DNA of 64,000 nt from Zanthoxylum bungeanum. Its lineage: Eukaryota > Streptophyta > Magnoliopsida > Sapindales > Rutaceae. The position numbers were made by a program, and so were the translations under genes. Positions 5,549 to 52,607 of this stretch are shown piece after piece. Positions within the stretch are counted from its first letter, which is position 1, and each line of letters begins with the position of its first letter. The stretch lies in assembly GCA_019454045.1 (NCBI GenBank), contig SKCR01017761.1, forward strand, positions 26,804 through 90,803. The letters run 5' to 3'. Below the pieces are notes generated by a model. The model ran no database searches. It saw only the letters and a program-made list of their open reading frames with translations, and was not told where the DNA came from.

Positions 5549-6571
5549 TACCTGGATCTTATAAAACTGGAAGTAATGTCACGGTTTTCTTGACGCTCAT
5601 ACCACTGCCAAACAGATCTTCTCTACTTCTTGATAACGGACTTCGTACGGAAGCATCTTCTTAATGAGATAGTAGACTGCATGCTCTACCCCTGTCTCAT
5701 CTGCCTGTACCATCATTGCCCCCACTGCTTCTGATTCTATGGCCAAATACAATATCAAGGGTCTGCCCGGTCTCGGAGGTTTCAATACAAGAGGCTTTAC
5801 CAAGTACTATCTGATCTTGTCGAAGGCTGACTGACACTGCTCATTCCATTTCACCGGCTGGTCTTTTCTCAGCAGTTTGAAAATAGGCTCACACAATGAT
5901 GTCAACTTGGCGATGAACCGAATGATATACTGAATTTTCCCAAGGAATGCTCAGACTTTTTTCTCTGTCTTCGGTGCTGGCATTTCAGTAATTGCTTTGA
6001 TCTTCTCTGAGTCTACCTCTATTCCTCCCATTCCCACTGTATGTCCCAGCAACTTTCCTAATGTTACCCCAAACACACATTTCTTGGGATTCAGCCGCAA
6101 GTTGTATTTGTCAACTCTCTGAAGGAACTTCTCCAGTGCTTCTATATGCCCGATTCTTGTCTCCGATTTCACCATCATGTCATCCACATACACTTCAATC
6201 TCTTTGTACATCAAATCATGGAATAATGTAGTGGCCATCCGTTGATAAGTAGCCCCTGCATTCTTGAGCCCAAATGGCATTACCTTGTAACAATAAGTAC
6301 CCCACTCGGTGACAAATGCAGTTTTGTGCTTGTCTTCTTCAGCCATAAGAACTTGATTATACCCTGAAAACCCATCTGCAAATGAATACATGGCAGACAA
6401 AGATGCACTATCAACTAGTACATCAATATGAGGTAGAGGAAAATCATCTTTCGGACAAGCCTTGTTAAGATCTCTGTAATCCACATACATTCTGACTTTC
6501 CCGTCTTTCTTCGGCACCGGCACAATATTTGCTAACCATTCATGATACTTTAGTACTTCCAGGAACCACAC
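5549..6571 (-). pseudogene. G1 reverse transcriptase and first RNase H
   Basis: RT core motifs are MYVDYRDLNKACPKDDFPLP, FADGFSGYNQVLM, MPFGLKNAGATYQRM and the catalytic YVDDM at about 6179-6190. After the stop at 5951 the same frame continues as AFLGKIQYIIRFIAKL (thumb/connection). An RNase H-like region follows (LYLAIESEAVGAMMVQ, YEVRYQEVEKICLAVV). Four stops (5951, 5807, 5597, 5579) break the segment. The catalytic RT residues themselves are kept. Confidence 0.9.
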
Positions 6572-10677: not shown

Positions 10678-13600
10678 TGTAGGACACAAATGTTGGACGA
10701 CGCTGTTTCGGGCTCGCGACCCGGTTGGGAGTACGGAATAGCCCGCGAGGGACTAAACCGGAGAAATATGGAGTCGCCACCGGTGTGAATCGGGAAAATG
10801 ATTTAAGGCCGCACTCACCCCTCGCAAGGTAAGACCTCAAACCGATGTGTTCAGAATGGTCCCTTACTTATACCACTTGTAATGAAATGATTTTTGCAAT
10901 AATCTTACCAAGCCTAAGCAACATATATTTCCAAGGATAATTCACTCCTAAGTTCGCATGCATAAGTACAAGGCTCATATCTAAGTTTGCATATAACCTA
11001 TGTCCAAATTTGCATGCATAAAGGTGAATGGAAATACGGCAAGCATAAAAATTCATAAGCACACCATGTTCATGGATACGGAAACGCAAGGAAATGGTAA
11101 TTGCACAAACACGCATAAAAGTGAATCCGAATAATGGCAAGCATACAATTTCATAATCACATTGTACTTATACATGTGAGAACACAAATAAATGGCAATT
11201 GCACAATCGTGCGTAAAAGAGAAGCGATTAGGTATATAATGCAAGGAGATAACTAATGAGGCAGTTGTACATTAAAATAAACGTGCAATGATGCGATGCA
11301 AAAGATAAACAATGAAAGTGAAAGAAAAGAGATGCGACATATGCCCACATCTATATAGGACTTCGAGTGTCCGATTAAACATATTTTATATTCAATCGAA
11401 CATACTTTGTCCGGCGCGGCAAAACGTCGTGGCAAAGGTAGCCCTTCGGCTTTCTATCCCTCAAAATGGAGGACCTTTAATCCAACTTGATTTGCCCATG
11501 CGCATTGCAATATGACGCATGATTATGCAAAGAGATGACATACAGATAGAAAACAACGGAATAATAAAAGGCGCGGCGAGGTACTGTCATAAAGGTAGCC
11601 TTTTGGACTTTTCTTCTCTCAAATAGAGGACCTTTAGACCAACATACTAAGTCCATTCGCATTACATTACAATACATATAAAATAAAGACAATGATATAG
11701 GACTTTGTATGCTCGGTTGAACATATCTCACATCCAACTAAACATACTTTGTCCGGCACGGCAAAGTATTGGCGTAAAGGTAGCCTTTTTCCCTTTTCTT
11801 CCCTCAAATAGAGAACCTTTAGACCAACATACTAGGCCCATGCGCACTATATCATCAATTACATAAAAAACTAATGTACATAAAGTAAAAGACGGAATAT
11901 AAAAGGCGCGGGAAAATATCGTGGTAAATGTAGCCCTTAGGCTTTTTATCCCTCAAAATGGAGGACCTTTAGACAAATGTAATAAGCCCATGTGCATCAC
12001 ATCACAATGCATATAAAATAAATAAGACAAGGATATGGGACTTCGCATGCCCGATTAAACGTATCTCGAATTCAATCGAACATACTTCGTCCGGCGTGGT
12101 AAAGTACTGTCGTAAAGGTAGTCTTTTAGACTTTTCTTCTCTCAAATAGATGACCTTTAGACCAACATACTAAGCCCATGCGCACTATATCGTCATTACA
12201 CAAGCAAATAACATACGAAAATTAAATGGTGGAATAAAAATGCGGATAATAAACAAACAAGATAACATAAATCGGAATATGTGTCGTTTGCTCAAGTGGT
12301 ACATGGAGTTGTATCTCAAGTACAGACCGCACTACCATCCATTCGGATTCGGCTACGTAATTTATGTCTGGGTTTCCATCCTATATACCACAAGAGGCGA
12401 CACATTTTCCATTTATTCAAGGGCCACAACACACATCATTCCACAATACTCATGCAAATAAAATTTAATAAATAATTACGAGATGAATGAAAATAAATTA
12501 GAAAGATGCCCTCAGGTCTAACCTTTTATGTCGACTCTCGGAAGCATGTTACAAGGCCGTCTAAAGGGCTAAAACTTCGCAACTTTTTTGGTTCGTTGGT
12601 TCACTTCTTTCCTCGCTGTATTCACTGCTCGAGCTACTATTTTCACTCCGTTTTGCTGCTGTTTTTGCTGTATTTTCTTTCACTATTTTTGGTGTATTAA
12701 TGGATTGTTTTTCACGGTTTTGAGGGGGTAGGGGCTGCTGTTTTATGCGGTTGTTTAAGGGTTTTAAAGTGCAGTTTTTTTCCACTGTTTTAGGTGATTT
12801 TAGCTACTGTTTCGGGGTACTTGGGCTGCTATTTTTTGGCTACTATTTTTGGTGTTTGGGTTGCTGTTTGGGGGTGATTTTCGGTGGTTATAAGGTGTAA
12901 AACAATGCAGTTTTTTTTTGTGGTATAGGGGACTGTTTTTATGCATTTTTAGGGGTATTGGACTGCTGTTTTGGTGAGTTTTGAGGGGGGTTTTTTGTAC
13001 AGTTTTTTGATGTAGTTTTGGGCAGTTTCTGGACTGTTTTAGGGTATTTTTTATGGGTGAAACTTGCAAAAAACTGGGTATTGGGGACTGGGCAGTGTGT
13101 GACAGTTTTTGTGGCCGTGAGGGGGGCTTATATGGCTCAGTTTTGGCAGTGAATGGAGGCTTGAACTGGGCAGTAAGGGGGCTGTTTTGCGTGTATGGAT
13201 GGGTGGTTTTTTGGGTGTGTTTTCAGTGGTGTTTTGCGGCAATGAAGGGTGGTGTTTTGGTTGGTGATTTTCGGTGGTGGATGGTGTTTAGGGGGTGTAT
13301 ACTCAGTACTTGAGAGTGAAGAAGGAGAAGAGAAATTATTTGCTTGCTTACTCTTGTTAGTGGGCGTGAATGGCTAGGAGTGGGGGAGTGTTGGAATTGT
13401 GTTTCTTTTATAGACAAAGGCTAGGGTGAATCCTTGTTAGAGAGGGAATAAGAGATCATGCAATAAATGTGAGATATTTTTTAGTGTTATACAAGGAAAA
13501 TAAATATTTAATTAGAGACAAGATTTGGTTTAATTAGGAAGTTAATATATTTGATTTATCTTAATTAGGCATGAAATTAATTAGATTTTATTATTTTATT

Positions 13601-13943
13601 TTGATTTTCCCATGTGTTAAATATGAATTTTAGTATTTTTGGATGTCTTTTATGGGCTTGGGCGTGTGTGGGCCTTTGTTGGGCGTGTGGCCTTTGGTTG
13701 GTGGGTTTGGTTGGCTTTGGTTGGTGGGTTTAGTGGTGTGTGGGCTTGCGGGGGTTTTAAGGCTAAAGGTACTTTAAAACGGAGGTCTAACAAGTGAGCC
13801 CGAAGCTAAACAAGCGAATAAAATCTAACAAAATATCGATTCCCTTCCGACGTCCATTTCCTGCGACTTCCTCGATTTAAAAGGTAGTGCCTCCAAATGA
13901 GACTCATCATAGGGACTTACATGCAAAAATGCAGTGCCTACAC
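10678..13943 (-). mobile_element. G1 5' LTR (right LTR)
   Basis: The full-length LTR, about 3,266 bp, begins TGTAGGACAC and ends GTGCCTACA on the plus strand, giving the expected TG...CA ends. It shares the repeat modules and T/G-rich middle with the left LTR. As the element runs on the minus strand, this is the promoter-bearing 5' LTR, with a TATA box at 13405-13414. No target duplication can be tested because the other outer end is outside the window. Confidence 0.93.
13405..13414 (-). promoter_or_regulatory. Probable TATA box of G1 (5' LTR)
   Basis: On the minus strand this reads TCTATAAAAG. It is identical and co-located with 2201-2210 in the other LTR. Transcription would run leftward through the rest of the LTR into the leader. 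Confidence 0.6.
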
Positions 13944-24953: not shown

Positions 24954-25446
24954 TGATGAGCGGAAAATATATCAATATTTACCGCCCCTTTAACCTAATA
25001 TTTTGTTTAGTTTCTCGGGTTTGATAAATGTTTTGATGTGTTTTAGTTTATTTTGCAGATAAAATAAAATTGGGACTTAATGGAATCATTTAGGACGAAA
25101 TTTGGAACAAATAAGGGCAAAAACTGGACTTGACATGTTGATTTTGGAGATTGGAAACTTGAAATAACGTTCTAACGAAGTACAATTTCAGAAATTCCAA
25201 CTTTGCGTAATTGTCGTATTTTGGCCATAACGTTTTACTCCGATATCGGATTGAGGTGATTCAAGTTCCAGATTAATAAGACTCAAAGATCTTCAATTTT
25301 GACGTTCATAATAATTTCGAATGCCGAAGATTTCATGACCAAAATTGATGAAACATACGGAAGTATGTTATGTATAATTATTTAAGTCATTTTCAAAATA
25401 AAATAAATAAAAATAAAATAAAAAATAAAAATGGTCAAACTTCCAC

Positions 25447-25505
25447 CAAACATGCTTTCATGTTTGGTGTCATGTTTGATGCCATGTTTCGTGCCATGTT
25501 TGGCG
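25447..25505 (+). repeat. CATGTTTGGTGC-type minisatellite in the N1 5' LTR
   Basis: Four to five imperfect ~13-bp units such as CATGTTTGGTGT, CATGTTTGATGC and CATGTTTCGTGC. The 3' LTR has the matching array at about 31133-31200 with more units. The ORF through it (repeated CLVPCLM-like peptide) is a by-product. Confidence 0.8.
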
Positions 25506-25809
25506 GAGCAATTGCTGGAGAAATTGGTGGAAGCCTTTAGAATTGCCTATAAATACCAAGCCATTTCATTTGTAATTATGATGCTTTCCTTAGGTTTTTG
25601 TAAGGAATTTAAGGATTGCATCTTATTTGTTTATTTTTTGCAATTTAAATTATGTATTTTTATTTTTTGTATTAGTAGTAGTTTCTTTTCTTTTCTTTTC
25701 TTTTATGTTTTGTAGTTAGATTTCCGCTGGGGGAAGGGTGAAGCTTTTATTATTTTAGTTTAGATCAATCTCCCTTAATTATAATATGGATAATTTAAAT
25801 TAAAGGATT

Positions 25810-26005
25810 ACCACCTTAATGGCTGGTTTTATTTATTTGACATAATATGACACCGTCTATATGCTCGGTCTTTAGGTGACAGATAATTACCGCCTATATG
25901 GCTGGTTTATGGACAAATGATAACACCGCTTTTATGGTCGGTTGGACTTAATTGAAAATATGACTTAATCAGGATACCGCCTATATGGTTGGTTGGTAAT
26001 ATCAC
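25810..26005 (+). repeat. Five-copy ACCGCCTATATGG repeat in the N1 5' LTR
   Basis: Degenerate copies of ACCGCCTATATGGnyGGTT are spaced about 35-50 bp apart near 25808, 25851, 25889, 25925 and 25976. The matching set in the 3' LTR lies at about 31510-31695. The position inside the LTR suggests cis-regulatory sequence, but this is inference. Confidence 0.75.
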
Positions 26006-26821
26006 TGATAATTTCTATATTATAATAAGGGAGATTTCTAAATTAGAAATAGTAAAGGTGGATCCCCTAACCCCCATCGTTTTATTTTTATTCTAGGAAA
26101 GTGATAAAACACAATATTCTCATGCTTAATAATTTATTTAATTATATAATGGGTAATTCTTTAGTTGTTTATTGAATCTTAAGCTTACTGCTTCTTGTTG
26201 CTTGATCAATAATAAGATTGACGTGGTAAACTTAAAAGAACTTGACGAATAAATTTTAGGTTTTAGCCTTAGATTCAATTGCCCACGATCTTCCTTGAGG
26301 ATTAATGACCCTCTAATAGATTTCCTTTCAGGATAGACATATACATGTCGGGCGGGGGCAACCACTAGTGGAACTTATACTTAATGAATTCAGGTAACTT
26401 GATTAACATAGACATATGATTAATTGGGTTATTTGGGTGTTTGCATCTCAACATCGACAGAGGCTTTTGCATATCTTCGTGTTCCAGGTTAGCAAACTGA
26501 TTTATTACACATATATAAGATAATCAATTTATCATTATAATAATATTGTGTGAAATCACAACCCTAGATATTTGTGTGTCTTGTTTATTTTCCTTAGTAT
26601 TTTCTTTTGTGTTTTTATTTATTTATTTGTTCAGCAAATCCACATTCAACCAACCAAAAGTAATCATTCATTTCTCCCTATAATTAGATACCTGTAAATA
26701 AATAGTATCAATAATTAATAACAACATTAGCAATTAAGTCCTCGTGGAATCGATATATTTATACTACTTGAACGATAAGTGCACTTGCATTATACGCGTG
26801 GGATTACGCCGGTCAAGTTTT

Positions 26822-26840
26822 TGGCGCCGTTGCCGAGGAC
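26822..26840 (+). other. Primer-binding site of N1 (tRNA-Asp type)
   Basis: TGGCGCCGTTGCCGAGGAC follows the 5' LTR after about six bases. This is the primer site typical of Athila and related plant Gypsy elements, complementary to tRNA-Asp, with one change (GGGGA to GAGGA). Confidence 0.85.
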
Positions 26841-26946
26841 TTATTTTTCTTGAGTTATTAATTTTGAAGCTATCTAATTTACTTGTATCTAATTTTCTTT
26901 TTATCTGTAATTTTTATTTCCTTCTTTTATTTTTCAGGTGGTTGAC

Positions 26947-27366
26947 ATGGATCTTTATTGGGAGATAGAAAGATTACGAGCTTTACTAGAAGAAGATACA
27001 CCCAAAATCAGGGAGCAACTGTCTGATTGTCTGAGGCTTGTTGTCCAGCCTAATTATCATTGGATGTCAGAACTAAACAATACTACATTTGCTCAACAGA
27101 ACGCAATGGGGAGATGTATGATATGCAATGGTAACCACCCGAGCGATCAATGCATATACATTTCAGAGTGGCAGAATTATAGGAATCAATCAAGGTACGA
27201 AGAGCCAACATATTTCACAAAACCACATTTTCCATTTTATCCACCATCCACCTACGATCTTCATCAAAAACCAGAACCATTAGAGAAAGATCAGATGATT
27301 GACATTCTCAAAGATTGGTTGAAGAAACAAGACGAAAAGTTGGATACAATGCATGAAACATTCTAG
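26947..27366 (+). pseudogene. N1 gag fragment with Athila-type zinc motif
   Basis: A 139-residue ORF from ATG 26947 begins MDLYWEIERLRALLEED. It contains a C-X2-C-X3-H-X4-C motif, CMICNGNHPSDQC, as in Athila-like gag. The capsid core usual upstream of this motif is missing, so only the nucleocapsid part remains. A basic/charged C-terminus ends EKLDTMHETF, where a stop interrupts. No protease, RT or integrase was found anywhere in the element, so it is non-autonomous. Confidence 0.75.
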
Positions 27367-28260
27367 AATCAATTCGAAAGTAAGAGACAATCACATCCAT
27401 TCAGAGACTGGCAGATCAAATGAGACAATTAACATAAAACCAGAGCTACATACCTCACAAAATATTTTCATATGAAACTGATTAAGCCTTGGAGTAACCA
27501 GAGTTTCACAATGACACCTTAACAGAGGAAGAGGTTGAGCAGTATCAAGAACCAGAGGTATCGGTTCAGGAGCCCAAACCAGCAAGGTCTCTGTTTGATT
27601 TTTATTAGTCAGATTCTGATGAGGATGAAGAAGTAGAGCTGTTTGTGCCAACAAAAATTGAGGATGAAATTCTGTATCCTCAAAATGAAGATCTTGGAGC
27701 TTCCATTGCACTAATGTTTGAAAAAGATCTACCTTAGCCAATCACATCAACCTCAGAGGATGAATACCTAAAATATGACATCTCTTTACATCCTCAGGTT
27801 GATACTTATGGAGCATGTATTTCACAGATGACAGATGAAGAATTGAATACGGAAATCCTAAAATACATCTGTGTAGAAAAGGTGGAGCAAGAAGCAGAAC
27901 AAATAAAGGAGCAAATATCTGACCATATTACAGATCTCGGGCATTCAGGAGAAATACCACTTTTTAGGGAGTATAAATTAAAGACATCACCCAGAAGCTT
28001 GAAAGAATGGAACTTCCATTCAAAGTCAAGCACCATACGATAACTCATGATTTTCTTTCTTTCTTTTCAGGAACCACTGGAGCGACAAAGATTAAAAAGG
28101 TGGCACCAGCACTGAATGAGATAAAATTATTGCCACCTTACCGTTGGAAGAGACCCTTCAAAAGCAATGCACACACGATTGTCTTAAATCGGACATCCAA
28201 GGCGACGCTGAGACCTCATTGACAGATAGATTTCAGTCACGTCTAGTTAAAGATGAAAAA
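27367..28260 (+). pseudogene. N1 degenerate acidic gag-tail coding remnant
   Basis: Broken coding sequence with a strongly acidic bias, readable as EEEVEQYQEPEVSVQEPK, SDSDEDEEVELFVPTKI and then, from 27828, MTDEELNTEILKYICVEKVE. Internal stops occur near 27600 and 27736. It ends in GCTAGCATGGAGGCAACCCA near 28268, a word I associate with the 3' side of plant gag regions of this group. No known catalytic domain was recognised. Confidence 0.55.
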
Positions 28261-28766
28261 TTTAGTGCTAGCATGGAGGCAACCCATGCAGTTTGTTGTA
28301 ATTAATGTTTTCTTATTTTGTGCATACATGTTGTAGAGTTTTTAATTTTGTGTCATATTTTTGTAGGAAAAGACACAAACGGAGCATTTTATGCAAAACA
28401 AGATAAGAGAAATGGTATTTGGCAATCACAAAGATGAGAGCTAATTCATTAGATATGGCTGAGTAATGAATGAATTCTTGAGATGCATCCTAATGGATTT
28501 TTATACCAAACGAGTGGCGTATTGCGTACACAATTTCGTTGCCTTAATAATTGCTTTGATTTGCTTTTCTGTTATAATTATCTTTATTTTTACCGACAGG
28601 ATCTCGACTTTTTTACCTTTCACATTTTATTTTATTATTTAGCTAAGAATCGTCCTTTGGAAGATACTAGTGCTATTATTACTTACCCTTTTCAGGTTCT
28701 ATAAATTCAACTAATCATTGCACTTTTGAAGGCATCCAGATTTGAGAAAGAAATACATAAAAAAAA
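28261..28766 (+). other. N1 stretch between gag remnant and the captured LOG copy
   Basis: About 500 bp of AT-rich sequence with no recognised coding content. It may include the 5' untranslated part of the captured mRNA just before 28767, but the capture boundary cannot be placed without the donor gene. Confidence 0.4.
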
Positions 28767-29414
28767 TTGGAAGCTATTTCAAGAAGACGAGTTGTAAATA
28801 TCTGTGTGTTTTGTGGTACTAGTGCTGGTTCTAAACCAGAGTTCGTTGCAGCAGCACAAGAATTGGGTAGAGTCATTGCTGAAAGGAATATGCACTTATG
28901 GCGGTGGCAATCTTGGGCTAATGGGGATCATTTTAAGGGCTGTACTGGAAGGAGGTAGTCAAGTTATGGGAATCATCCCAAAACCTTTGCCAGATGAGAA
29001 TCTTATAGGACCATCAAACGGAGAGGAACTTATCGTACCAGTTATGTCTGAACGACTGGTGGAAATGATTAACCGTGCTGATGCTTTTATTACTTTGCCA
29101 TGTGGCTTGGGTACGATGGAGGAAATTTTTACAGTGCTATCTTGGCAAACTTGAATATACACCAGAAACCGATTAGACTGTTTAACGCTGATGGATTTTA
29201 CGACTTTCTTTGTGTGTTTCTTGATGATGCATGGAGAAATGGGTTCGTGTCAAAACCTGTAAAAGATCTCCTCTTTACTGCCAGAACTGCCAATGATCTA
29301 ATTGACCAAATTTTAGCCTTTAAACCACAAATTGACCATATCATTTCCAAGATAAACTGGTCTAATAACGATTGTGGTAAGAAGCGTCGGATAAATCTGG
29401 ATCTTAACCTTTAA
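28767..29414 (+). pseudogene. LOG-like: Captured, intronless LOG (cytokinin riboside 5'-monophosphate phosphoribohydrolase) copy
   Basis: LOG enzymes release active cytokinin bases from their riboside monophosphates in the cytosol. Three frame segments join into one ~216-residue LOG: NICVFCGTSAGSKPEFVAAA (28797 on), YGGGNLGLMGIILRAVLEGG with MGIIPKPLPDENLIGP, MSERLVEMINRADAFITL, GTMEEIFTVLSW, and finally NLNIHQKPIRLFN to the C-terminus at stop 29412-29414. The Rossmann-like nucleotide site, the Arg of MSER and the Glu of GTMEE are visible. Lesions: the start is TTG, about 5 nt are lost after MHL near 28897, 1 nt is lost near 29145, and PGG of the PGGxGTxxE signature is PCG. Plant LOG genes normally have several introns, and none is present. 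It lies between gag remnants and the 3' end of N1, so a cDNA-type capture by the retroelement is the best reading. Confidence 0.9.
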
Positions 29415-30612
29415 TTTTAGATGTAGAATTTCAGCTAACCAGGTAGGGTTTTCTAAACTCTTCTTCTACTTTTTAAGACATTGGGGATAATGTCTCGTTT
29501 AGGTTTGGGGGAGGGGAATAGTTGACTAGTACCTTGTTTTTATTGGGTTATTTTATTTGATTTTTAGTCAAAAATTTTCAAAAAATTAAAAAATAATTTA
29601 TAAAAATTAAAAAAATATTTTGTTTTTGTGTTTTTAATTTGATTAATTAGGTGAAATTGGTGTGAGATAACTGTGTAAGGAATTTCCACTCCTGAGACGT
29701 ATTTCAACTTATTTCGTAACAAGTTAATTTTTGTTTATTTCCGTTTGAATTATTTAATTTGTGAATTCTCCATAATACTGACTAAATTGGATCTTCATAT
29801 GCTCAGTTGACAGGTATTATCAACATGCATGGTAACATACAGCCATGAGATGTAATTGAAAAGTTTGTAATATTCAGTGTTCTAGTTTAATTGGAGGAAA
29901 CATCTAAAAAGCAATTGGAGAAAAAAAGAAAAATAAAAGAAAAAAAAGTGTAATAAAAAAAAACGTCTGAGATTCGAGTCATTTAGTCCGTAGGGGTGTC
30001 TTAACACCTAGTGCCTAAAAATCAACTGGCTTGGAAGTCACTGGCCCAAAGCTCGTTACATGGATAAGATGTTGCATTCTCTATTTTATGCAAAAGAAAA
30101 AATAATAATAAAAAAAAAGTAAAAAAATTCATTGCTAAAAAAGTGTAAATTCTGATATAACTTTAGGATAAAAATATTACTCTCTTTTAAACTACACTTA
30201 TGAATATTATGGGCACAATGATTTGATTAATACCTTGTTGGTTGTGTTTATGAAGAATGGTAAAAATAATCAGAGAATTTACTTATTTGGTAATTTAGAA
30301 AGAAAAAAAAACATATACTAACTTGGATATGAAGTTTCACTTGTTTAGTCACTAACTTGTTTATTCTCATTTCTCATTTCTCTTATCTTTTTGCTTGTGT
30401 GCATTAGATTGACGTTTGTGGGTATCCTCACTGTAAGCCCTCACGAGACTACAACTCGTCCACTATGGACACCTAGGGGTTTAAAGGCTTGTTGCATACG
30501 CTAAATGCAACCGTGATCCCTATGAAAGTGGCTTACTTTTATATTAATTTTTTTTTTTGCATTTTTTATTGTTGTTTTGCTCAAGGACTAGCAAAATTTT
30601 AGGTTTGGGGTG
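29415..30612 (+). other. N1 3' internal region and polypurine tract
   Basis: Non-coding. A GACATTGGGGATAATGTCTC then TTAGGTTTGGGGGAGGGG block lies at 29469-29515, a conserved feature of Athila-like elements. A-rich and low-complexity stretches follow. The region ends with TTAGGTTTGGGGTG at about 30599-30612, the polypurine tract abutting the 3' LTR. Confidence 0.7.
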
Positions 30613-32516
30613 TGATGAGCGGAAAATATATCAATATTTACCGCCCCTTTTACCTAATATTTTATTTAGTTTCTCGGGTCTGATGATCGTTTTGATGTGT
30701 TTTAGTTTATTTTGCACATAAAATAAAATTGGGACTTAATGGAATCATTTAGGACGAAGTGTGGAACAAATAAGGGTAAAACATGGACTTGACATGTTGA
30801 TTTTGGAGATTGGAAACTTGAAATGGCGTTCTAAAGAAGTACAATTTCAGAAATTCCAACTTTCTGCAATTGTCGTATTTTGTCAATAACCTTTTACTCT
30901 GATATCGGATTGAGGTGATTCAAGTTCCAAATTAAAGTCGACACAAAGATCTACAACTTTGATGTTCATAATAATTTCGAATTATGATGATTTCATGACC
31001 AAAATTGATGAAACATTCAGAAGTGTGTTATGTGTAATTATTTAAGTCATTTTTCAAAATAAAAAAATAAAATAAAATAAAATAAAAAATTAAAATTAAA
31101 ATTATCAAACTTCCACTAAACATGCAGGATTTGGTGCCATGTTTGGTGCTATGTTTGGTGTCATGTTTGATGCCATGGTTGGTGCTATGTTTGGTGGAGC
31201 AATTGGTGGAGAAATTGGTGGAAGCCTTTAGATTTGCCTATAAATACCAAATCATTTCACTTGTAATTCTGATGCTTTCCTTAGATTTTTGTAAGAAATT
31301 TAAGGATTGCATCTTGTTTGTTTATTTTTTTTAATTTACATTATGTATTTTTATTTTCAGTAATACTAGTAGTTTCTTTTCTTTTCTTTTCTTTTCTTTT
31401 ATGTTTTGTAGTTAGATTTCCGCTGGGGGAATGGTGAAGCTTTTATTATTTTAGTTTAGATCAATCTCTCTTAATTATAATATGGAAATTATAATTTAAA
31501 TTAAAAGATTACCGCCTCAATGGTTGATTTTATTTATTTGACATAATGTGACATCGCCTATATGGTCGGTCTTTAGGTGACAGATAATTACCGCCTATAT
31601 GGCTGGTTTATGAACAAATGATAACATCGTCTTTATGGTCTGTTGGACTTAATTGAGAATCTGACTTAATCAGAATACCGCCTATATGGTCAGTTAGTAA
31701 TATCACTGATAATTTCTATATTATAATAAGGGAGATTTCTAAATTAGAAATAGTAAAGGTGGATCTCCTAACCCCAACATTTTATTTTTATGCTAGGGAA
31801 ATGATAAAACACAATATTCATATGCTTAATAATTGATTTAATTATATATTGGGTAATTCTTTAGTTGTTTATTGAATCTTTAGCTTAATGTTTCTTGTTG
31901 TTTGATCACCAATAAGATTGATGTGGTAAACTTAAAATGAACTTGATGAAGGGATTTTAGGTTTTAGCCTTAGATTCAATAGCCCACGATCTTCCTTAAG
32001 GATAGATAACCCTTTAATAGATTTCCTTACATGATAGACATATACCTGTCGGGCGGGGGTAGCCACTAGTGGAACTTAGACTTAATGAATTCAGGTAACT
32101 TGATTAACATAGACATATGATTAATTGGGTTATTTGGGTGTTTGCATCTGACCATCGACATAGGCTTTTGCATATCTTCATGTTCCAAGTTATCAAACTG
32201 ATTTATTACACATATATAAGATAATCAATTCATCATTAGAATAATATTGTGTGAAATCACAACCCTAGATATTTGTGTGTTTTGTTTATTTTCCTTAGTA
32301 TTTTCTTTTGTGTTTTTATTTATTTATTTGTTCAGCAAATCCACATTCAACCAACCAAAATTAATCATTCCATTCTCCCTATAATTAGATACCCGTAAAT
32401 AAATAGTATCAATAATTAATAACAATAGTAGGAATTAAGTCCTGGTGGGATCGATATTTCTATACTACCTGAATGATACGTGTGCTTGCGTTATACGCGT
32501 GTGATTATGTCGGTCA
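30613..32516 (+). mobile_element. N1 3' LTR
   Basis: A 1.90-kb LTR starting TGATGAGCGGAAAATATATC and ending CGGTCA, the partner of 24954-26815. The two differ by scattered substitutions and by copy number in the minisatellite (about 31133-31200) and the TTTTC microsatellite (about 31375-31400). Confidence 0.9.
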
Positions 32517-33422
32517 AGTATACAACATAAGATAGCTAATCTTATGATGAACAGGTCAAATATAAACTTCAAATAAAAAAATTAGCATATCAGCGATATA
32601 TCAGAATTACTAAATTGTTACATGTTCAAATTTTATTAACTTGATATTATCCTTATATTCAACCCATGTCAAACATTTATATTTACTTATCTACAAATGT
32701 GTTATTCCAATAGCTAATATCCAAAGCATACAGAGAAAAACATGAATACCATAGAGTATATCGTTTGATATCAAAAACACTTCAATCACATGAAATATGA
32801 AGTCATACACATATACTTTTATCACAATTATCCATTTTTGAAATTCATCAAATCGACAATCAAAACAAAATGTCTAAGAAAACTGTCTTTTCATAAATCT
32901 CTTTTCTTATCTGAAAATACATCTCTTTCTGTAAAAAATTTCAAAAAAAAAAAAACTCTTTTCTATTTGTAAAACTCTGAGTTGTTCTGTAAATAATCAT
33001 AATCAATGCAATAACTTTCCGAGTTAACAATACCTAAATCCAAGTTTTCCTTTAAAAACATTTGTAAAACAGTTGTGAAAACATCATCTGAAATAGCATC
33101 TATCAACCTGTACATAATCACATGGTCTTGGGGCGTTACGTCTCGCCGTCCCCCAAGCCACTAAATCAGTAAACAGTGGTGCTATCAGTGCCACCAACCT
33201 ATCACTGAAACTAAACCAGCAAACTTTTGTGATATCAGTGCCACCAACGTGTCTCTGAATTCCGGGTCTAGGGGCCTCGTTATCCCACTAGCCCAATACC
33301 CAAGATCTAGGGGCATCTGTCTATAGGAACCACTTTCCTAGCACATCAGAAACACATTAGACACATGGATCGGACATGGAAAATTTTTCTGCCCTTCTCA
33401 CCAAGAGGCTGAGTGATACTAG
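32517..33422. other. Unassigned sequence between N1 and the family B tandem
   Basis: No gene was found. There is a 7-bp stem (CTTGGGG / CCCCAAG) at 33127-33133 and 33151-33157. A ~50-bp repeat with TATCAGTGCCACCAAC occurs near 33183 and 33231. The texture resembles a Gypsy LTR remnant, perhaps the continuation of 23968-24953, but I could not prove this. Confidence 0.45.
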
Positions 33423-34551
33423 TGTTAGGGATATGCCCTATACCCAACTTGTGGATGGGCTATATGTACATGTATTTGTAATATTTTCATTAATTAATAA
33501 AATGAAAATCTTTATTATACGTGTCTTACATAACTTATATGAATCATCAAACACTGTAATAAAGCCCTTGGAGTAATAAGATGATGGCTTTCACGCCTTA
33601 TGAGAATCATTACTCTCAAACGTTCCTAGTCATAATTTTATGAATAATCTAGGCGTTCACAAAGCGGAGAGACTAGCATGATGATATGATACGCCCTTAA
33701 GTGGGGTAACCGGTCTCATAGGCTACTAGCGGAGATCCATCCGCTTGGTGTATCACATGGATGCATGAGTTGCTCGTGTCCATCGAACTGACCGCCGAAA
33801 GTTTTCACATGGAGTGTTTATCCCATGTGTCTGTGAGAACTTTCATGTATCGATTGTATGACTAGTCCTTAGACTTGAGGTCTTTACAATCTTATGTGTG
33901 GATCAAATAACTTTGACATTCTCCTTCCCCGGTTCAAAAGATCCGGTCATAAGGGTATGATTGGGTCATTTGTTGAAACACATAAAGTTTGTAAAGATAC
34001 AACAGAGAATCGCCACTCTCTCAGATAATATTTTCATATAAGTGTAGTATTCCAGTTCACGGGTTGATATGTGTGATCAGTGCTTGAGACTGTGGCCGCA
34101 TCGGAAGAATCATGTGAGATTCTTGGGTTAGCATGATTCATGACACTATTAACATCATACCTTTACCATATTGGTAGAGACTTTCCGTACCCTAGGTCAA
34201 ACGGTGGGGATACGGTGACGCGAGGGACCATATCATATGTAAATCACATACATAATGGGTATATATATCTTTATTTCTCATTTGGGGGCCTTGGCATGTT
34301 GCTAGATGTCAACCTTGGTCATTGAAATCGAACGACCATCTGATCGGAGGATAATTTATGTTCAATTAAATTATCACGATTAATTTAATGTCCAACTTGA
34401 GAGGAACCCAAAAGGTCACACACAACAAAGTCGAAATCAATGGTTAATAGTGCACTATACAAACTTAACAGCATATATGATTACTATATGAATTGTTCAT
34501 AAATGGTTCAATGTGTTTAATTATTGAACAGATCATTTATAAGGTTCCATA
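33423..34551 (+). mobile_element. B-tandem first LTR, part 1 (interrupted by A2)
   Basis: The 5' part of a Copia family B LTR, starting TGTTAGGGATATGCCCTATA. It matches 50625 onward in the middle LTR until A2 interrupts it. Its last five bases, CCATA, are the target site of A2. The LTR resumes at 44464. The upstream flank is ACTAG (33418-33422); the matching duplication would lie outside the window. Confidence 0.92.
34547..34551. repeat. Target-site duplication of A2, left copy
   Basis: CCATA directly precedes TGTTGG of the A2 left LTR and recurs at 44459-44463 directly after the right LTR. Confidence 0.9.
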
Positions 34552-36564
34552 TGTTGGTTTCTATTAAGGTCCCAAGATCAATTATAAGCATAAATAATGT
34601 GCGAATACAAATCGAAGAAGTTGCGGAATACTTACATCGATCGGTTGAGCGACGCGACAAGTAATAAAACTCAAAATTCTGCCTTGGACTGGTCACGGCA
34701 GTGAGTAGAACTGTCCTCACTGTTTTAGCTTTGATTTGGTCCTTCGTCAAGCTCCAAGCTTCGTCGAATGGTTCCCGGCTCATGGGTGAGCTTCCCTATC
34801 ACCTTCGCAAGTCTCGTAAGTGTGCTAGCACTTGAGATTTTGCCACAAAATCCACTCTTGCTTCCCTTTATTTTCGGTCACTGCCCAGCAAAACCAGAAA
34901 ACTTTTTGCCCTTTTGGGCGTGTGAAATGGAGAGAAAGAGAGAATGAGAGATTGTGTTTGGTTTGGAAAATTTGTGTATTATATACACACATTTGAATTT
35001 CAAATGAATTTCATTTGAATTTGGCTTTTAAAGTCAAACCATTAAAGCCTCAACCACTCACATCACTCAATCCATCAAGTTGTCAAGTCACATCACTCAA
35101 AGTGACTTGTGATTTGACGCTTGATACGACTAGCGATTTGACGCTTGATTTGACGTGCCGCACTCGAATTCGAAATGCGAATGTGCTCGCAAATAATCTC
35201 GGGCTCGGGTTCGCTAATTCTAAATTAACGAATTTTCCGTTGCGTTGTAATTAAATGATTACGCCTAGCGAAATCACTATTCATGTCGATAACGAATTAA
35301 TTCTAAATTAATTCGTTCGCCCGAATTAAAATCTAATTTTAATTCCGCGTCGAAATCTAATATCGTTTAACATATCAAATATATCAATTTCTCGATAATT
35401 CCAAATTAACCGTTATCTCTCTTTAATGGATATTTTATCCCAGATAAAATATCTCCGCTAGTAATCCCAAATTAACTTTCTCTCTCATCTAATTAATCCC
35501 AGATTAATTTAGAGTGCGAGTTATACGTCATCGGTGAATCTTTGGGAAGCGACCCATGAGATCCCCGGATATGTTAGCAGTAAATTCGGTCGTCGGACTA
35601 TCCGAACACGTAAGTACCTCGTACTACGTTTATACCGATTTACAAGACAAGGTTGGCCTCTAGCAAAGCGCCATGCCTACCCAATTCTCCGGAAATATCC
35701 TTACAGGAATAAAGGATCTGAATCAAGCGTAGTATACCGTAGTATTGCGTATTTCTGTCCAGTATCTGATGATCACGTGTTAGGTCTGGGGCTGGAATTG
35801 TGTCTGCCCCGTACGAAGCACATGTCGGATGTCTGGTGACTAGTCTCTATAATCGGATAAACCTGACCTTGTCATTTTATCCCGATAGCTGCAGCATTTA
35901 AGAGTGCTAGTACCGTATCCTACGTGACCATCTTCTCCATATGACTGGAGTGACACTTCCGTCTTGACATCACACCCAACACACTACGATTCTCAATATA
36001 CCCAGTATTGGCGTACACAGAACCGGTTAAAGCCCTGGACGACCTCAACCAAAGTATATTGATTGTCGCAAGTATTAGCGGTGCAAGTATCAGGTTAAGA
36101 CCAAATACACCTACCCTGATTTCGGACTTCCATAGACACATAGTCATACTACCAATGGATTTCCGAGGGGATCTATCCAGAGCGAAGCTATTTCCCGTAC
36201 CATCGGTAAAACACAACCTCCTATTACACTTGCATGAGTATCCTATACCCAAATATATGAAAACTATGCTGTTGTGCCCTCACAAACGCGCATAAGTGTA
36301 ATACTAGTCGTTTACGTATTTATCGATGTCCAATCTCGATAATACTCTGACTAGGGAAATTTAATGATTTATCCTTCGTGGACTGATACTGTCTCATATC
36401 ATTCTCCGTCCAGGAACAAATCATAGGGACCTCTCATCATTTATACACCTAGGTGATCTAATCATAAATGATAAGAGTGCAATCTCCTTTGTCACATAGT
36501 TAATTTTTACAACAACACCATGATCTGTACAAATAGTGACGCTATGGGTCATAATTGTCCAACA
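34552..36564 (-). mobile_element. A2 3' LTR (left LTR), Copia family A
   Basis: A 2,013-bp LTR, TGTTGGTTTC...GTCCAACA, the partner of 42514-44458 and homologous to the A1 and A3 LTRs. Differences from its partner include a 12-bp block near 35140 and an AATTAAAATCTAATTTTAA block near 35325 that are present here but absent there. Confidence 0.93.
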
Positions 36565-42499: not shown

Positions 42500-42512
42500 G
42501 CTCTAGATGCCA
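42500..42512 (-). other. Primer-binding site of A2 (degenerate)
   Basis: On the minus strand this reads TGGCATCTAGAGC, one base inside the right LTR. It is a mutated form of the initiator-Met site TGGTATCAGAGC. Confidence 0.7.
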
Positions 42513-42513
42513 T

Positions 42514-44458
42514 TGTTGGTTTCTATTAAGGTCCCAATATCAATTATAAGCATGAATAATGTGCGAATACAAATCGAAGAAGTTGCGGAATACTTACATC
42601 GATCGGTTGAGCGATGCGGCAAGCAACAAAACTCAAAATTCTGCCATGGACTGGTCACGGCAGTGAGCAGAACTGTCCTCACTATTTTGGCTTTGATTTG
42701 GTCATTCGTCAAGCTCCAAGCTTCGTCGAATGGTTCCCGGCTCATGGGTGAGTTTCCATATCACCTTCGCAAGTCTCGTAAGTGTGCTAGCACTTGAGAT
42801 TTTGCCACAAAATCCACTCTTGCTTCCATTTTTTTTTTGTCACTGCCCAGCAAAACCAGAAAACTTTTTGCCCTTTTGGGCGTGTGAAATTGAGAGAAAG
42901 AGAGAAGGAGAGATTGTGTTTGGTTTGGAAAATTTGTGTATTATATACATACATTTGAATTTCAAATGAATTTTATTTGAATTTGGCTTTTAAAGTCAAA
43001 CCATTAAAGCCTCAACCACTCACATCACTCAATCCATCAAGTTGTCAAGTCACATCACTCAAAGTGACTTATGATTTGACGATTGATGCGACTAGCGATT
43101 TGACGTGCCACACTCGAATTCGAAATGCGAATGCGCTCGCAAATAATCTCGGGCTCGGGTTCACTAATTCTAAAATAACGAATTTTCTGTTGCGTTGTAA
43201 TTAAATGATTACGCCTAGCGAAATCACTATTCACGTCGCTAATGAATTAATTCTAAATTAATTCGTTTCCGCATCGAAATCTAATTTCGTTTAACATATC
43301 AAATATATTAATTTTTCGATTAATTCCAAATTAACCGTTATCTCTCTTTAATGGATATTTTACCCTAGATAAAATATCTCCGCTATTAATCCCAGATTAA
43401 TTTAGAGTGCGAGTTATACGTCATCGGTGACTCTTTGGGAAGCGACCCATGAGATCCCCGGATATGTTAGCAGTAAATTCGGTCGTCGGACTATCCGAAC
43501 ACGTAAGTACCTCGTACTACGTTTATACCGATCTACAAGACAAGGTTGGCCTCTAGCAAAGCGCCATGCCTACCCAATTCTTCGGAAATATCCTTACAGG
43601 AATAAAGGATCTGAATCAAGCGTAGTATACAGTAGTATTGCGTATTTCTGTCCAGTATCTGATGATCACGTGTTAGGTCTGGGGCTGGAATTGTGTCTGC
43701 CCCGTACGAAGCACATGTCGGATGTCTGGTGACTAGTCTCTATAATCGGATAAACCTGACCTTGTCATTTTATCCCAATAGCTGCAGCATTTAAGAGTGC
43801 TAGTACCGTATCCCACGTGACCATCTTCTCCATATGACTGGAGTGACACTTCCGTCTTGACATCACACCCAACACACTACGATTCTCAATATACCCAGTA
43901 TTGACGTACACAGAACCGGTTAAAGCCCTGGATGACCTCAACCAAAGTATATTGATTGTCGCAAGTATTAGCGGTGCAAGTCTCAAGTTAAGACCAAATA
44001 CACCTACCCTGATTTCGGACTTCCATAGACACATAGTCATACTACCAATGGAATTTCGAGGAGGTCTTATCCAGAGCGAAGCTGTTTCCCGTACCATCGG
44101 TAAAACACAACCTCCTATTACACTTGCATGAGTATCCTATACCCAAATATATGAGAACTATGTCGTTGTGCCCTCACAAACGCGCACAAATGTAATACTA
44201 GTCTTTTACGTATTTATCGATGTCCAATCTCGATAATACACTGACTAGGGATATTTAATGATTTATCCTTCGTGGACTGATACTGTCTCATATCATTCTC
44301 CGTCCAGGAACAAATCATATGGACCTCTCATCATTTATACATCTAGGTGATCTAATCACAAATGATAAGAGTGCAATCTCTTTTGTCACATAGTTAATTT
44401 GTACAACAACACCATGATCTGTACAAATAGTGATGTTATGGGTCATAATTGTCCAAAA
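42514..44458 (-). mobile_element. A2 5' LTR (right LTR)
   Basis: A 1,945-bp LTR starting TGTTGGTTTC. Its outer end reads GTCCAAAA where the family has GTCCAACA, so the terminal CA has become AA. The boundary is fixed by the CCATA target duplication that follows directly. Confidence 0.92.
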
Positions 44459-44463
44459 CCATA
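44459..44463. repeat. Target-site duplication of A2, right copy
   Basis: CCATA, identical to 34547-34551. Removing A2 and one copy restores a continuous family B LTR that aligns with 51740-51755 of the middle LTR. Confidence 0.9.
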
Positions 44464-45307
44464 GTGGTTTAGGGATTTGTGAATGACGATAGGGGCACTT
44501 TGGGAATTGGAATAAATAAATAAATTAAAAAAATGTGAATCGTAACGTGAATAGTAAATTTTTTTTATTTGTTATTTGTTTTGAATTTCAATTCAGCCCA
44601 AACTCTTATTAGGGTTTTATAATCTCATTAAACCACTAAATTAAGATCCAAATCTCACATCGGATTCTTAATGGCTAAGATTAAATTAGAATTTATCCCA
44701 CATCGGATTCTTAATTAATTTTGTTGTCTTTGGAGCACCTATATAAACCCAAAGAATTCTTCACAAATTTTTGCACCAAACCTTTCATATCTTGGGTTTA
44801 TATAAGTGAGCAACTCTAAAGTTTAAGAGTAAGCCACTGATTTTGAGGATCCTTAAGTCTTATTGACTAGAGGAACCTCAAGTTAAAAGTTTTGAGGTAT
44901 TTGCCTAGGCTAGCACCAAGGCAAAATACCCGTGCACTCAAGGCGTAGTCTTGCCGTTGAGTTTTGATTTTGGTGTGTGCACCTTTGGAGGCCACACACT
45001 TGGGTGGCTCTTTGGAACCTGGAAGAGCTTGTTGAGTTCGAGAAAATCTTATAGATTGGAGGGAGTACTAGAGGAGTCTTCATTTCAAGTAAGTCATTTT
45101 CTTTCTTTATTTTAAATTAGAGTTCTTATGATAGTTAGCATGTTTAAGTTTATGTTCTTTGCATGTTTTATGAGTTTTTATGCTTAGAATATATAGTAAC
45201 ATACCTAGTATTGTAGAATAATAAAAAAAATGGGTCTGGGCAAAGGGATAGCGGCATCATAATTTGATTTATTAAAGTTTTCGTTGCGCACTCGCGGTCG
45301 CTTCCCA
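44464..45307 (+). mobile_element. B-tandem first LTR, part 2
   Basis: The rest of the LTR split by A2. It aligns with about 51757-52589 of the middle LTR. A TATATAAA box lies at 44740-44747. It ends CCCA at 45307, followed by a four-base spacer and the primer site. Together the two parts make about 1,973 bp, against 1,965 bp for the middle LTR. Confidence 0.92.
44740..44747 (+). promoter_or_regulatory. Probable TATA box of family B (first LTR)
   Basis: TATATAAA, conserved at 52022-52029 in the middle LTR, within CACCTATATAAACCCAAAG. It lies well inside the LTR, as expected for the U3/R junction. A2 sits upstream of it in this copy and would separate it from most of U3. Confidence 0.6.
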
Positions 45308-45311
45308 ATAG

Positions 45312-45325
45312 TGGTGTCAGCGCGC
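45312..45325 (+). other. Primer-binding site of B internal I
   Basis: TGGTGTCAGCGCGC, a one-base variant of TGGTATCAGCGCGC found after the middle LTR. It is an initiator tRNA-Met-type site. Confidence 0.8.
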
Positions 45326-46689
45326 CATTTTTATTTTGATTAGTTCTCTCTCATTTGAACTCGAAATTGGGTGTATAAAAGCTCATTGGAAAGCTAACAC
45401 CCTTAACTTAATTTTAGGCACAAGTTTTGCATGATTTGGTTAAGATTTGAATTGTGAAATTGCATAAAACTTCACGCATCTGTAAAACAATGTGAATAGT
45501 AAATTTATTTGATTAAAATAAAATGCAATATCATAATTAAATATTATTCAAAGTTATTTAATGCCTAAAATAATTCCAACATATTAAAAATCATATGCTT
45601 GATGATTCTATGTATGATTAGAATTGGTATGATTATTTTAGAGTGAAAACATCTAGAGACTTTCTAAGGAAATAGAGAGTGTATTGCCTATCCCTTAGCT
45701 AAGTAATTATTTCGTGATGAACTTAGAGATTTATTACATTTAAGGCTAATAAATATAAATCATTTGTTTATAATAAAGACATTATAAAAGATACAAGTGG
45801 GGTGGGACCAAGGCGTTAATAAAACTTTCCAAACTAAAGTTAATTTAACCAAAGGTATTACTAGAGTTAGATAATGATTTGGTGTATTCCTTCACTCAAT
45901 AGCTTTTTATAGCCAAAATGAAAAGCTGTGAAAACATCTAGATAATCATTTACTCAAAGCTTACCTTAAATCATATTTAAACTGTTGGACTAATTTGGAG
46001 GATCTACTGTTTATTCCTGTCACCAAGGCAATAAGAGCCAAAGTGGTAAGGGTATTTAAGAGAGTTCGCTCCACCCTCCCTCTGGGGAATTTTCAATGGA
46101 TGAATCCATTTGACTGTTATTCACTTAAACTTGCTAAAATCCTCAATAATAATTTAGGTCTAAAATTATTTGACTGTGTAAAGTATAGACCCAAAGGGCT
46201 CAAACCGTATTGGCAGGACTAGGCTTTACCAGACTGACCAATACCAATTTGTCCCTAAATTGTAATATTGACAATGGTTTGACTTTTCTGAGTCATAAAA
46301 CGCAGCGACCCTTAGGCGTGGTCTTATAACTTAGTGGCAAGGATTGGGTGTCCACGAGGACTAGCATAAGTTATGGGATGTTTGATTGCCCAACCCAATG
46401 ATCAAGGAATTGTGATTTATATCATAAATTGGTTGGGAACCTACCTAATTATCGTATTTTATAACGACCGACCCTAGTCGGAGTTATGAAATGATGATAA
46501 TGGGATCCTTGCCCACAAGAAATCCATCATATTGGGGTTGATGCGATTTGCTTAAAATTTAAAACAATTGAGTGGGAGAAACTTCATAATATTAAAAGCC
46601 CATGTTATTATGAAACATTAATGAAAACATATTCCTAATTTTAACATTTTCTCTTAACATATGGGTTAGAATATTTCAAAAACATTCAA
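45326..46689 (+). other. B internal I, 5' leader
   Basis: About 1.36 kb of non-coding leader that matches 52608-53973 base for base, apart from scattered changes. It has a short perfect stem CCGAC-CCTA-GTCGG near 46470. The ORF at 45995-46222 is not conserved as a protein in the second copy. Confidence 0.75.
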
Positions 46690-47572
46690 ATGGAAAACAG
46701 AATATCACTTCGTTCCATCCTTGATGAGCATAAGCTCAAAGGGGACAACTACAATAATTGGTATAGAAACCTTAAAATTGTCTTACGACAAATTGTCTTA
46801 CGACAAGAAAATATTTTCTATGTTCTTAAAAGACCATTTTCCCCTGAACCCGCAGAAGATGCTGACCAAAATACATTTGATGCTTGGAAGAAACACGTCG
46901 ATGATGATGAGCAAGCAGTTTACATAATGTTTGGCTCTATGTCAGACGAACTTCAGAAAGTTCACGAAGATATGGATGCTCAAACCATCATCTTTCACTT
47001 GAAGGAGTTGTATGCAACTTCCGTTCATACCGTGAGAAGTGTCATGTGCCTTACTCCAAACAAGGTATAAGGAAAGATCTGTTAGTGGACATGTGCTTAT
47101 GATGATTGGCCACATTGAAAAATTGGCTAACCACGGGTTCATCATGGATCATGAGATAGGTCATGATCTAATTCTTCAGTCCTTACCAAAAGACTTCTCT
47201 AACTTTATTATGCAGTTTCATCTATCTAATAAATAAGCTATTTTAGAAGAATTGCACAATCTGATAAAGCAAGCAGAAAAGGAGTTGAAACTGGAGCTTA
47301 AAACCTCCGTCATGCTTACGGGTACAGACCTGAAGCCACGAGGCCCAAAGAAAAATAAGGGCAAGGCCAAGGATCCAGATCACCTAAAGCCTAATGGTAA
47401 GGTGAAGAAGAAAAAAGGAAAGGAGAAATGTTTCTTTTATGGAAAGAATGGTCATTGGAAGAAAGACTGTAGATCCTTGAAAGCCAATGAAGCTAAGGAA
47501 GCCCAAGAGGCCAAGAAGCCCAATGCTTTAGGTATGTTGTATATGATTGAACTATATTCTCAAAAACTCTGA
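46690..47572 (+). pseudogene. B internal I gag
   Basis: Copia Gag from ATG 46690 (MENRISLRSILDEHKLKGDN). A 15-bp direct duplication at 46777-46806 repeats IVLRQ. About 5 nt are lost near 47035 compared with copy II, which shifts the frame. Gag resumes as GHIEKLANHGFIMDHEIGHD, then has a private stop after HLSNK at 47234. The zinc knuckle reads CFFYGKNGHWKKDC, with Tyr for the second Cys, the same as in copy II. Confidence 0.88.
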
Positions 47573-48110
47573 ACCTTCTACTTGGGTGCTTGACACCGGT
47601 TGTGGGACTCGCTTGTGTAACAATGTGCAGGGCCTGAGAAACAGTAGGAGACTCCGTCATGGGGAGGTTGACTTACGCATGGGTAATGGAGCAAAACTGG
47701 CTGCATTGTGCGTGGGGACTTATTAATTAGTTTTTCCGAATGGTTTAGTTTTAAACTTAGAAGATTGTGTTTATGTACCTTCTCTAGTAAAGAACATCAT
47801 TTCAATTTCTTCTTTATGTAATAAAGGCTTTTCATGCCTAATAAGTTGTAATGAATGTTCTATTATTTTCAATGAAATAAAATATGGAAATGGTATTTTG
47901 AATAATGGTATCTATGTCTTACAAACTAACAAAGAATGTTCAACCTCTAATATATACAACGTTAACTCGAATAATCTCAATGAATCACTTCTATGGCATA
48001 GTCGCTTAGGTCATATCAATGAAACAAGGATGGGTATTTCAGACCCTTCAAATATGAACCTTATGGAACTTGTGAGTCTTGTTTACTTGGTAAAATGACC
48101 AAATTACCCT
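47569..48110 (+). pseudogene. B internal I protease and GAG-pre-integrase
   Basis: The aspartic protease motif STWVLDTGCGTRLC is one base out of frame with the gag ORF. The same shift exists in copy II. A stop falls after LCVGTY near 47724. Pre-integrase sequence follows, LLWHSRLGHINETRMG at about 47985-48035, then ELVSLVYLVK in a shifted frame. Confidence 0.82.
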
Positions 48111-52589: not shown

Positions 52590-52593
52590 TTAG

Positions 52594-52607
52594 TGGTATC
52601 AGCGCGC
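52594..52607 (+). other. Primer-binding site of B internal II
   Basis: TGGTATCAGCGCGC follows the middle LTR after four bases. Its presence shows that a second internal region begins here, not flanking host DNA. Confidence 0.85.

Follow-up and report, generated by a model that had tools for sequence, protein, structure and literature searches.

The stretch of DNA analysed here (the window) comprises 64,000 nucleotides of the Zanthoxylum bungeanum genome (contig SKCR01017761.1, positions 26,804 to 90,803) and holds on its forward strand a retrotransposon with long terminal repeats (LTRs) that encloses a reading frame of the cytokinin-activating LONELY GUY (LOG) type. The two LTRs, at 24954-26816 (with the ends TGATGAG...GGTCA) and 30613-32517 (ends inspected), were found as a pair by self-BLAST; they are in direct orientation, have TG...CA ends and are 89.9% identical over 1908 columns. 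An earlier note on this DNA had placed an element between matched LTRs at 26816-30612; the matched LTRs and the element are real, but these coordinates cover the internal part between the LTRs, and the whole element runs from 24954 to 32517. Directly 3' of the 5' LTR lies a sequence resembling a primer binding site (PBS), TGGCGCCGTTGCCGAGGA (26822-26839), present as claimed before, which by its consensus is probably of the tRNA-Asp type. A polypurine-tract-like sequence, read at 30600-30612, precedes the 3' LTR, and the direct LTR pair thus encloses a PBS and a polypurine tract, as in an LTR retrotransposon. A tRNA scan of the 64-kb window found none.

The internal part begins with a gag-like open reading frame (ORF) of a shortened subfamily (142 amino acids, 26938-27366), which contains the zinc motif that had been noted on the gag side (CX2CX4HX4C at 27115-27153) and found no match in a Pfam scan at E 0.1. 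Further on, we found by blastn a relic (28234-28296) of the spacer that in pol-bearing copies of the family separates integrase and a gene of the type of the betaflexivirus nucleic-acid-binding proteins (NABP; 76-83% identical to the spacer of L012, L013, L014, L017, L018, L022, L023 and L025; L numbers denote stretches fetched from the same genome), a possible but weak relic of the NABP gene itself (28408-28469; a single match, to L015, 75% over 63 columns, E=8e-4), and, by comparison with the relatives, a LOG leader (28584-28740) common to the pol-bearing copies. The LOG reading frame follows at 28767-29411, and the conserved block reported earlier, GGTTTGGGGGAGGGG, was read at 29502-29516. 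The LTRs have diverged by 0.088 (Kimura two-parameter distance, 1864 compared sites), which at the rate of 3.92e-9 used for the Zanthoxylum bungeanum genome in PMC8417289 corresponds to about 11 million years, provided that the genus is Zanthoxylum. Among 120 listed of 2190 database hits, a matK piece of the assembly is most similar to Zanthoxylum calcicola (91%), followed by Calodendrum (87%) and Skimmia (86%), which puts the plant in Rutaceae and probably in Zanthoxylum; the piece contains a frameshift and could be a nuclear copy.

The LOG homology is intronless and matches PF03641 (E=2.5e-32 when the frame is read with X at two breaks) as well as PF18306, and 204 of its residues were aligned to the Arabidopsis LOG structure PDB 2a33, so that by both profiles and by fold it belongs to the LOG family. 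It starts with TTG and lacks an ATG, has two frameshifts (near 28890-28905 and 29140-29154) and reads PCGLGTMEE (29098-29124) in place of PGGLGTMEE; the motif PGGxGTxxE, presumably diagnostic of a type-I cytokinin phosphoribohydrolase LOG, is therefore missing. Because of these three defects the LOG of the window copy is dead, a pseudogene that has drifted freely since insertion. Of the full-length intronless LOG coding sequence that had been described here, the intronless homology stands but not its intactness, and no intron-bearing LOG gene occupies the site.

We searched the assembly (3,956,113,105 bases in 51,709 contigs) with a 721-base LOG query. Out of 11,102 first-look candidates we scored the 40 with the best match; each of these, the window among them, aligns with 714 or more of the query bases at 89-100%, so that the match is not due to chance and the family has, as was suspected earlier, spread LOG through the genome. 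Twenty stretches besides the window were fetched from this search, and tblastn with individual domains as queries served to locate the domains in them. In 20/20 of these relatives the 3' internal sequence of the window comes after LOG (only 285 bases of it in L009-L011). Upstream of LOG, pol domains were found in 7/20 relatives and a NABP-type ORF in 11/20, and the window-type short ORF was found on the LOG strand in 7/20. The stretches richest in domains, L022 and L025, have the order protease (PROT), reverse transcriptase (RT), RNase H (RH), integrase (INT), NABP, LOG; other layouts were RT-RH-INT-NABP-LOG (L012 and L014), RH-INT-NABP-LOG (L013), GAG-PROT-NABP-LOG (L015), GAG-PROT-INT-NABP-LOG (L017) and NABP-LOG (L018, L019, L023 and L027). 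By Pfam, L014 has RVT_1 and RT_RNaseH with scores that exceed the cut-offs, and L017 has RVP_2 and rve with scores below them (E 6.5e-4 and 8.8e-4). The family thus has RT, RNase H and integrase of the Gypsy type, none of which is present in the window copy. Since the pol domains of relatives lie upstream, the fuller members carry LOG as an accessory ORF on the 3' side of integrase, and the window copy is of the pol-deleted kind; the idea that LOG stands where pol should be, i.e. that it replaced pol, is ruled out by the same relatives.

An extra ORF between pol and the 3' LTR is a trait of the Athila lineage, and a PBS of putative Asp type is another trait in common with Athila and the wider OTA group. 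From PBS type and layout we call the family Athila-like. The window copy is an old, dead, pol-deleted insertion of this Athila-like Ty3/Gypsy family, from which pol and most or all of the NABP gene are gone, and the description of it as a non-autonomous copy with LOG inside holds.

Three of the relatives are closely connected to the window copy. L009 and L011 have the same 5' flank as this copy, at 92% identity (the L010 stretch does not reach the flank), and L009-L011 are mutually 99.4-99.8% alike, so that these three and the window copy most likely represent one insertion in duplicated or haplotypic DNA; the view that they are independent close copies was rejected on the same grounds. The flanks of L009 and L011 could themselves be a duplicated segment or a homeologous region. 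That a host LOG gene or retrogene came to lie between unrelated LTRs of two separate insertions would agree with the sharing of the 5' flank with L009 and L011, with the lack of a long match to the 3' flank among the fetched stretches and with the lack of a clean target-site duplication (TCTAT versus AGTAT, 3 of 5 positions alike, in an old insertion). We nevertheless consider this origin very improbable, because an LTR in the same orientation follows LOG within the stretch in 14/20 relatives; the order of LOG and 3' internal sequence is the same in 20/20, and the PBS and the polypurine tract lie at the correct junctions. The GGGTG junctions ahead of TGATGAG are similar in other copies of the family.

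The number of single-exon LOG copies in the genome is large. When the LOG homologue P0001 (217 residues) was used as query, 150/150 scored places covered at least 215 residues in one exon; 125 of these were stop-free and two were 100% identical to P0001. Similarly, 150/150 places scored with an Arabidopsis LOG (204 residues) had a single exon; they covered 196-199 of its residues at 48-51% identity, and 146 of them were stop-free. Together, 300/300 scored places are thus single-exon, near-full-length LOG, with at least 8 places common to both lists; stops were counted by hand, and the first-look candidates (70,454 for P0001 and 58,043 for the Arabidopsis LOG, as well as the 11,102 of the DNA search) are not copy numbers. 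The 20/20 relatives with fetched flanks suggest that these places belong to the element. A donor LOG gene with exon junctions, which the earlier note had proposed to look for, was not found: the Arabidopsis query returned element-type, single-exon copies only at its 150 scored places, and the flood of such copies may hide the host LOG genes from this query. On this result we set aside the explanation that LOG is a retrogene of recent origin whose donor can be located. For annotators this holds a warning, as many LOG-like open frames in this genome are of the element type and not demonstrated host LOGs.

We compared the ratio of nonsynonymous to synonymous changes (N/S) between singleton and shared variants in a 217-codon alignment of 21 copies, for which the neutral N/S opportunity of LOG is 2.57 (transitions weighted 4). 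The ratio was 3.08 for singletons and 1.33 for shared variants (p=9e-4). When L009-L011, L019 and L025 were dropped as possible repeats of one insertion, the remaining 16 copies, whose independence was judged by similarity inside the stretches only (15 top pairs), gave 3.12 (N125/S40) and 0.98 (N58/S59), respectively (p=8e-6). No such drop was seen in the +1 and +2 frames of the same 16 copies (singletons/shared 2.81/2.90 and 2.64/4.57), and the signal in the LOG frame persisted when CG/CHG transitions were left out (p=0.0004 for 17 copies and 0.006 for 21). Because shared variants are depleted in amino-acid changes and the other frames are flat, purifying selection probably acted on LOG during the multiplication of the family. 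Integrase showed the same signal (p=0.027, 6 copies), and the window-type short gag-like ORF gave no selection signal (p=0.6, 9 copies). In the insertion group of the window, the fixed differences (in at least 3 of the 4 copies, i.e. the window and L009-L011, when set against 80% or more of the remaining 17) were N19/S5, showing no sign of constraint, and hence LOG has drifted in this group.

LOG could also be neutral, a host gene that the element acquired by chance and has since carried as a passenger without a role. Transduction of host genes by LTR elements is well known, the window insertion drifts freely, and two subsets of the variants do not decide: transversions alone gave a weak result (p=0.13 for 21 copies and 0.029 for 17), and few shared variants fit a split of the tree, with p=0.21 or 0.08 for those alone, so that this version of the test was set aside for having too few compatible sites. 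Nevertheless, the depletion of shared amino-acid changes specifically in the LOG frame, the many open copies and the retention of the catalytic motif and of a length of 212-217 amino acids in plant homologues that are as little as about 50% identical make a mere passenger unlikely.

All of 30 aligned LOG homologues have the P, the three G and the first E of the motif PGGxGTxEE, and its T and second E are kept in at least 90%. The structure model of P0001, a protein that occurs only in ENA contigs of at most 1296 bases, has a predicted local distance difference test (pLDDT) score of 86, and by Foldseek it matches Arabidopsis LOG 2a33 (E 6.9e-20; template-modelling (TM) score 0.94 by target, 46% identity). 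The element LOG thus resembles plant LONELY GUY enzymes (PDB 2a33 and 1ydh) in fold and PGGxGTxEE motif; unlike the Arabidopsis LOGs, it is encoded by a single exon in an element and forms a separate clade. In a midpoint-rooted tree of 30 rows, in which the canonical plant LOGs are represented by two Arabidopsis sequences only, the window and 22 plant-type homologues form one group (support 90/96) beside these two. Since bacterial LOGs are among the database matches (at 37-45%), an origin of the element LOG by horizontal transfer from bacteria rather than from a plant may be considered; it is hardly credible in view of the tree, in which the element-type clade and the two Arabidopsis LOGs are split from the five bacterial rows with a support of 100/99. 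That homologues in other species are also element-borne is supported where NABP is fused to LOG (see below) and is presumed for the others.

The gene that precedes LOG in the fuller copies encodes about 182 amino acids and lies 249-271 bp upstream of LOG in its carriers (L012, L013, L014, L015, L017, L018, L019, L022, L023, L025 and L027). NABP-type genes are otherwise known from RNA viruses, where they are often named silencing suppressors. The ORF of L015 matches PF05515 (Viral_NABP) with 27.5 bits (cut-off 23) and comes just under the cut-off for PF01623 (Carla_C4; 19.7 against 20.9 bits), and the homologue P0072 is above cut-off for both. A database search gave 223 homologues; the 120 listed include sequences from Xanthoceras, Acer, Populus, Rhamnella, Orobanche and Citrus. 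In two of the predicted proteins, P0183 (Rhamnella) and P0190 (Citrus), NABP continues directly as LOG: their NABP part is 58% (179 columns) and 63% (167 columns) identical to P0072, and their LOG part 43% (127 columns) and 45% (84 columns) identical to P0001, respectively. In Pfam scans, LOG alone was detected at E 0.05 in P0183 and the domains of P0190 were all below their cut-offs. By eye, P0187 and P0164 resemble integrase-NABP and protease-NABP fusions, but Pfam detected NABP alone in them.

The family thus carries a gene that matches viral profiles and that is absent from the window copy. As in the NABP and cysteine-rich proteins of Betaflexiviridae (PF05515 and PF01623), a zinc-type cysteine motif comes after a stretch of basic residues in the product; it differs from these in its length, in conserved N- and C-terminal parts of its own and in being retrotransposon-borne. 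The likeness might be a convergence of zinc finger and basic patch in an accessory protein that is unrelated to the virus suppressors. For this speak the modest Pfam E-values (best 1.1e-8), a weak structure model (pLDDT 68, predicted TM score 0.30) whose matches in a BFVD fold search all had E values of 0.4 or more, and the outcome of two profile searches, with 0 matches in PDB at E<=1 and 0 confirmed among 50 pattern stretches in viral contigs. On the other side, 44/46 aligned members match Carla_C4 and 41/46 Viral_NABP at E<=0.01, and the first 6 of the 23 BFVD matches are all of the Viral_NABP/Carla_C4 kind (E 0.48-2.2), five of them named RNA silencing suppressor, which leaves convergence rather unlikely. 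The source viruses of these six (Chrysanthemum virus B, Fig latent virus 1, Grapevine Kizil Sapak virus, Cherry mottle leaf virus, Cowpea mild mottle virus and a prunevirus) all belong to Betaflexiviridae. Two homologues from Xanthoceras, P0034 (LOG, 39 members) and P0086 (NABP, 47 members), have comparably high counts, which gives the impression that this kind of element is abundant there.

We therefore consider it very probable that the window holds a dead, pol-deleted copy of an Athila-like family in which LOG is a 3' accessory ORF behind integrase with a NABP-type ORF before it. Besides the transversion and tree-split results given above, several points weigh against this reading or parts of it. 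The relatives L016 and L021 contain LOG alone, with no pol, NABP or short ORF. The 300 scored LOG places are the best-scoring ones, and therefore their openness is biased upward; among the 21 copies selected by DNA similarity, PGGLGTMEE is intact in 7 and a stretch of at least 217 codons is open in 5. Selection was not significant for RNase H on all changes (p=0.12, 5 copies) or for NABP (p=0.087, 9 copies; transversions p=0.77), and the NABP frame was open for at least 182 codons in 2 of the 6 copies readable by the motif check.

The presence of LOG in plant Gypsy elements is already known. Steinbauerova et al. in 2011 reportedly described, in their abstract, a LOGL4-like ORF in two Athila-like elements. 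The YgdH domain, which also occurs in LONELY GUY proteins, was found in Gypsy LTR-retrotransposon consensus sequences of Citrus sinensis and C. clementina and, once a filter was off, in an LTR-retrotransposon consensus of Populus trichocarpa, a result called in line with Steinbauerova et al. 2011 (PMC9289625). The same type of domain is thus found inside Gypsy elements of Citrus, which shares the family Rutaceae with this genome, and its capture is not peculiar to the window copy but is family-wide and seen elsewhere. The section on YgdH in PMC9289625 is silent on a virus-type neighbour ORF, on the intactness of copies and on selection on YgdH. Athila and the wider OTA group likewise have an accessory ORF between pol and the 3' LTR (PMC6317226, PMC7264820); in Athila, ORF-1 (pfam03078) is present in 16% of elements (PMC6317226), whereas here the 3' ORFs are LOG and the NABP-type gene. 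Gypsy elements of Phalaenopsis similarly have an extra enzyme gene, for an AlkB-type RNA demethylase, retained over several replication rounds (PMC9289625); it encodes another enzyme, whose activity was shown in vitro. A NABP partner of LOG in retrotransposons was not mentioned in the literature searched, judged mostly by title and the start of the abstract, and within that literature the NABP-type gene as the neighbour of LOG is new.

Selection on LOG is supported, and a benefit of LOG to the element is our inference. The 3' ORFs would most likely be expressed from spliced or subgenomic element RNA. LOG, as an active cytokinin nucleoside-5'-phosphate phosphoribohydrolase, would turn cytokinin nucleotides into active bases, and the local rise in active cytokinin would favour expression or transmission of the element in dividing, germ-line-forming tissue, a role we propose tentatively. 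The NABP protein might bind nucleic acid, RNA in particular, and blunt silencing of the element, which is somewhat more doubtful. In the window copy neither gene works. Still more speculative, and rather doubtful, is the idea of a widespread eudicot Athila-like lineage with a selected two-gene module, in which a silencing suppressor of RNA-virus type and a cytokinin-activating enzyme together would blunt silencing and steer cells to a dividing, transmissible state; the virus gene could have been captured by the element, or betaflexiviruses could have taken theirs from such retrotransposons. Retrotransposons are usually thought to need gag and pol alone. If true, this would give a tangible example of a plant transposon that manages both the hormones and the defence of its host, and that might have supplied viruses with a counter-defence gene or received one from them.

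Other repeats were also found in the window. A direct pair at 1-2738 and 11183-13942 (95.6%) perhaps represents the LTRs of another element with internal repeats, and the minus strand has an INT-like match at 3917-4264 and an RT-like one at 5978-6388. An LTR-like pair (34547-36562 and 42510-44456, 93%) is nested in a larger repeat, which consists of 33423-34551 together with 44461-49894 and has a second, less interrupted copy at 50625-56679. Elsewhere in the genome, a matK copy with one frameshift (G000:C40003:160561-161558; L029 and L030) lies in a contig with masked stretches and is perhaps plastid DNA in the nucleus.

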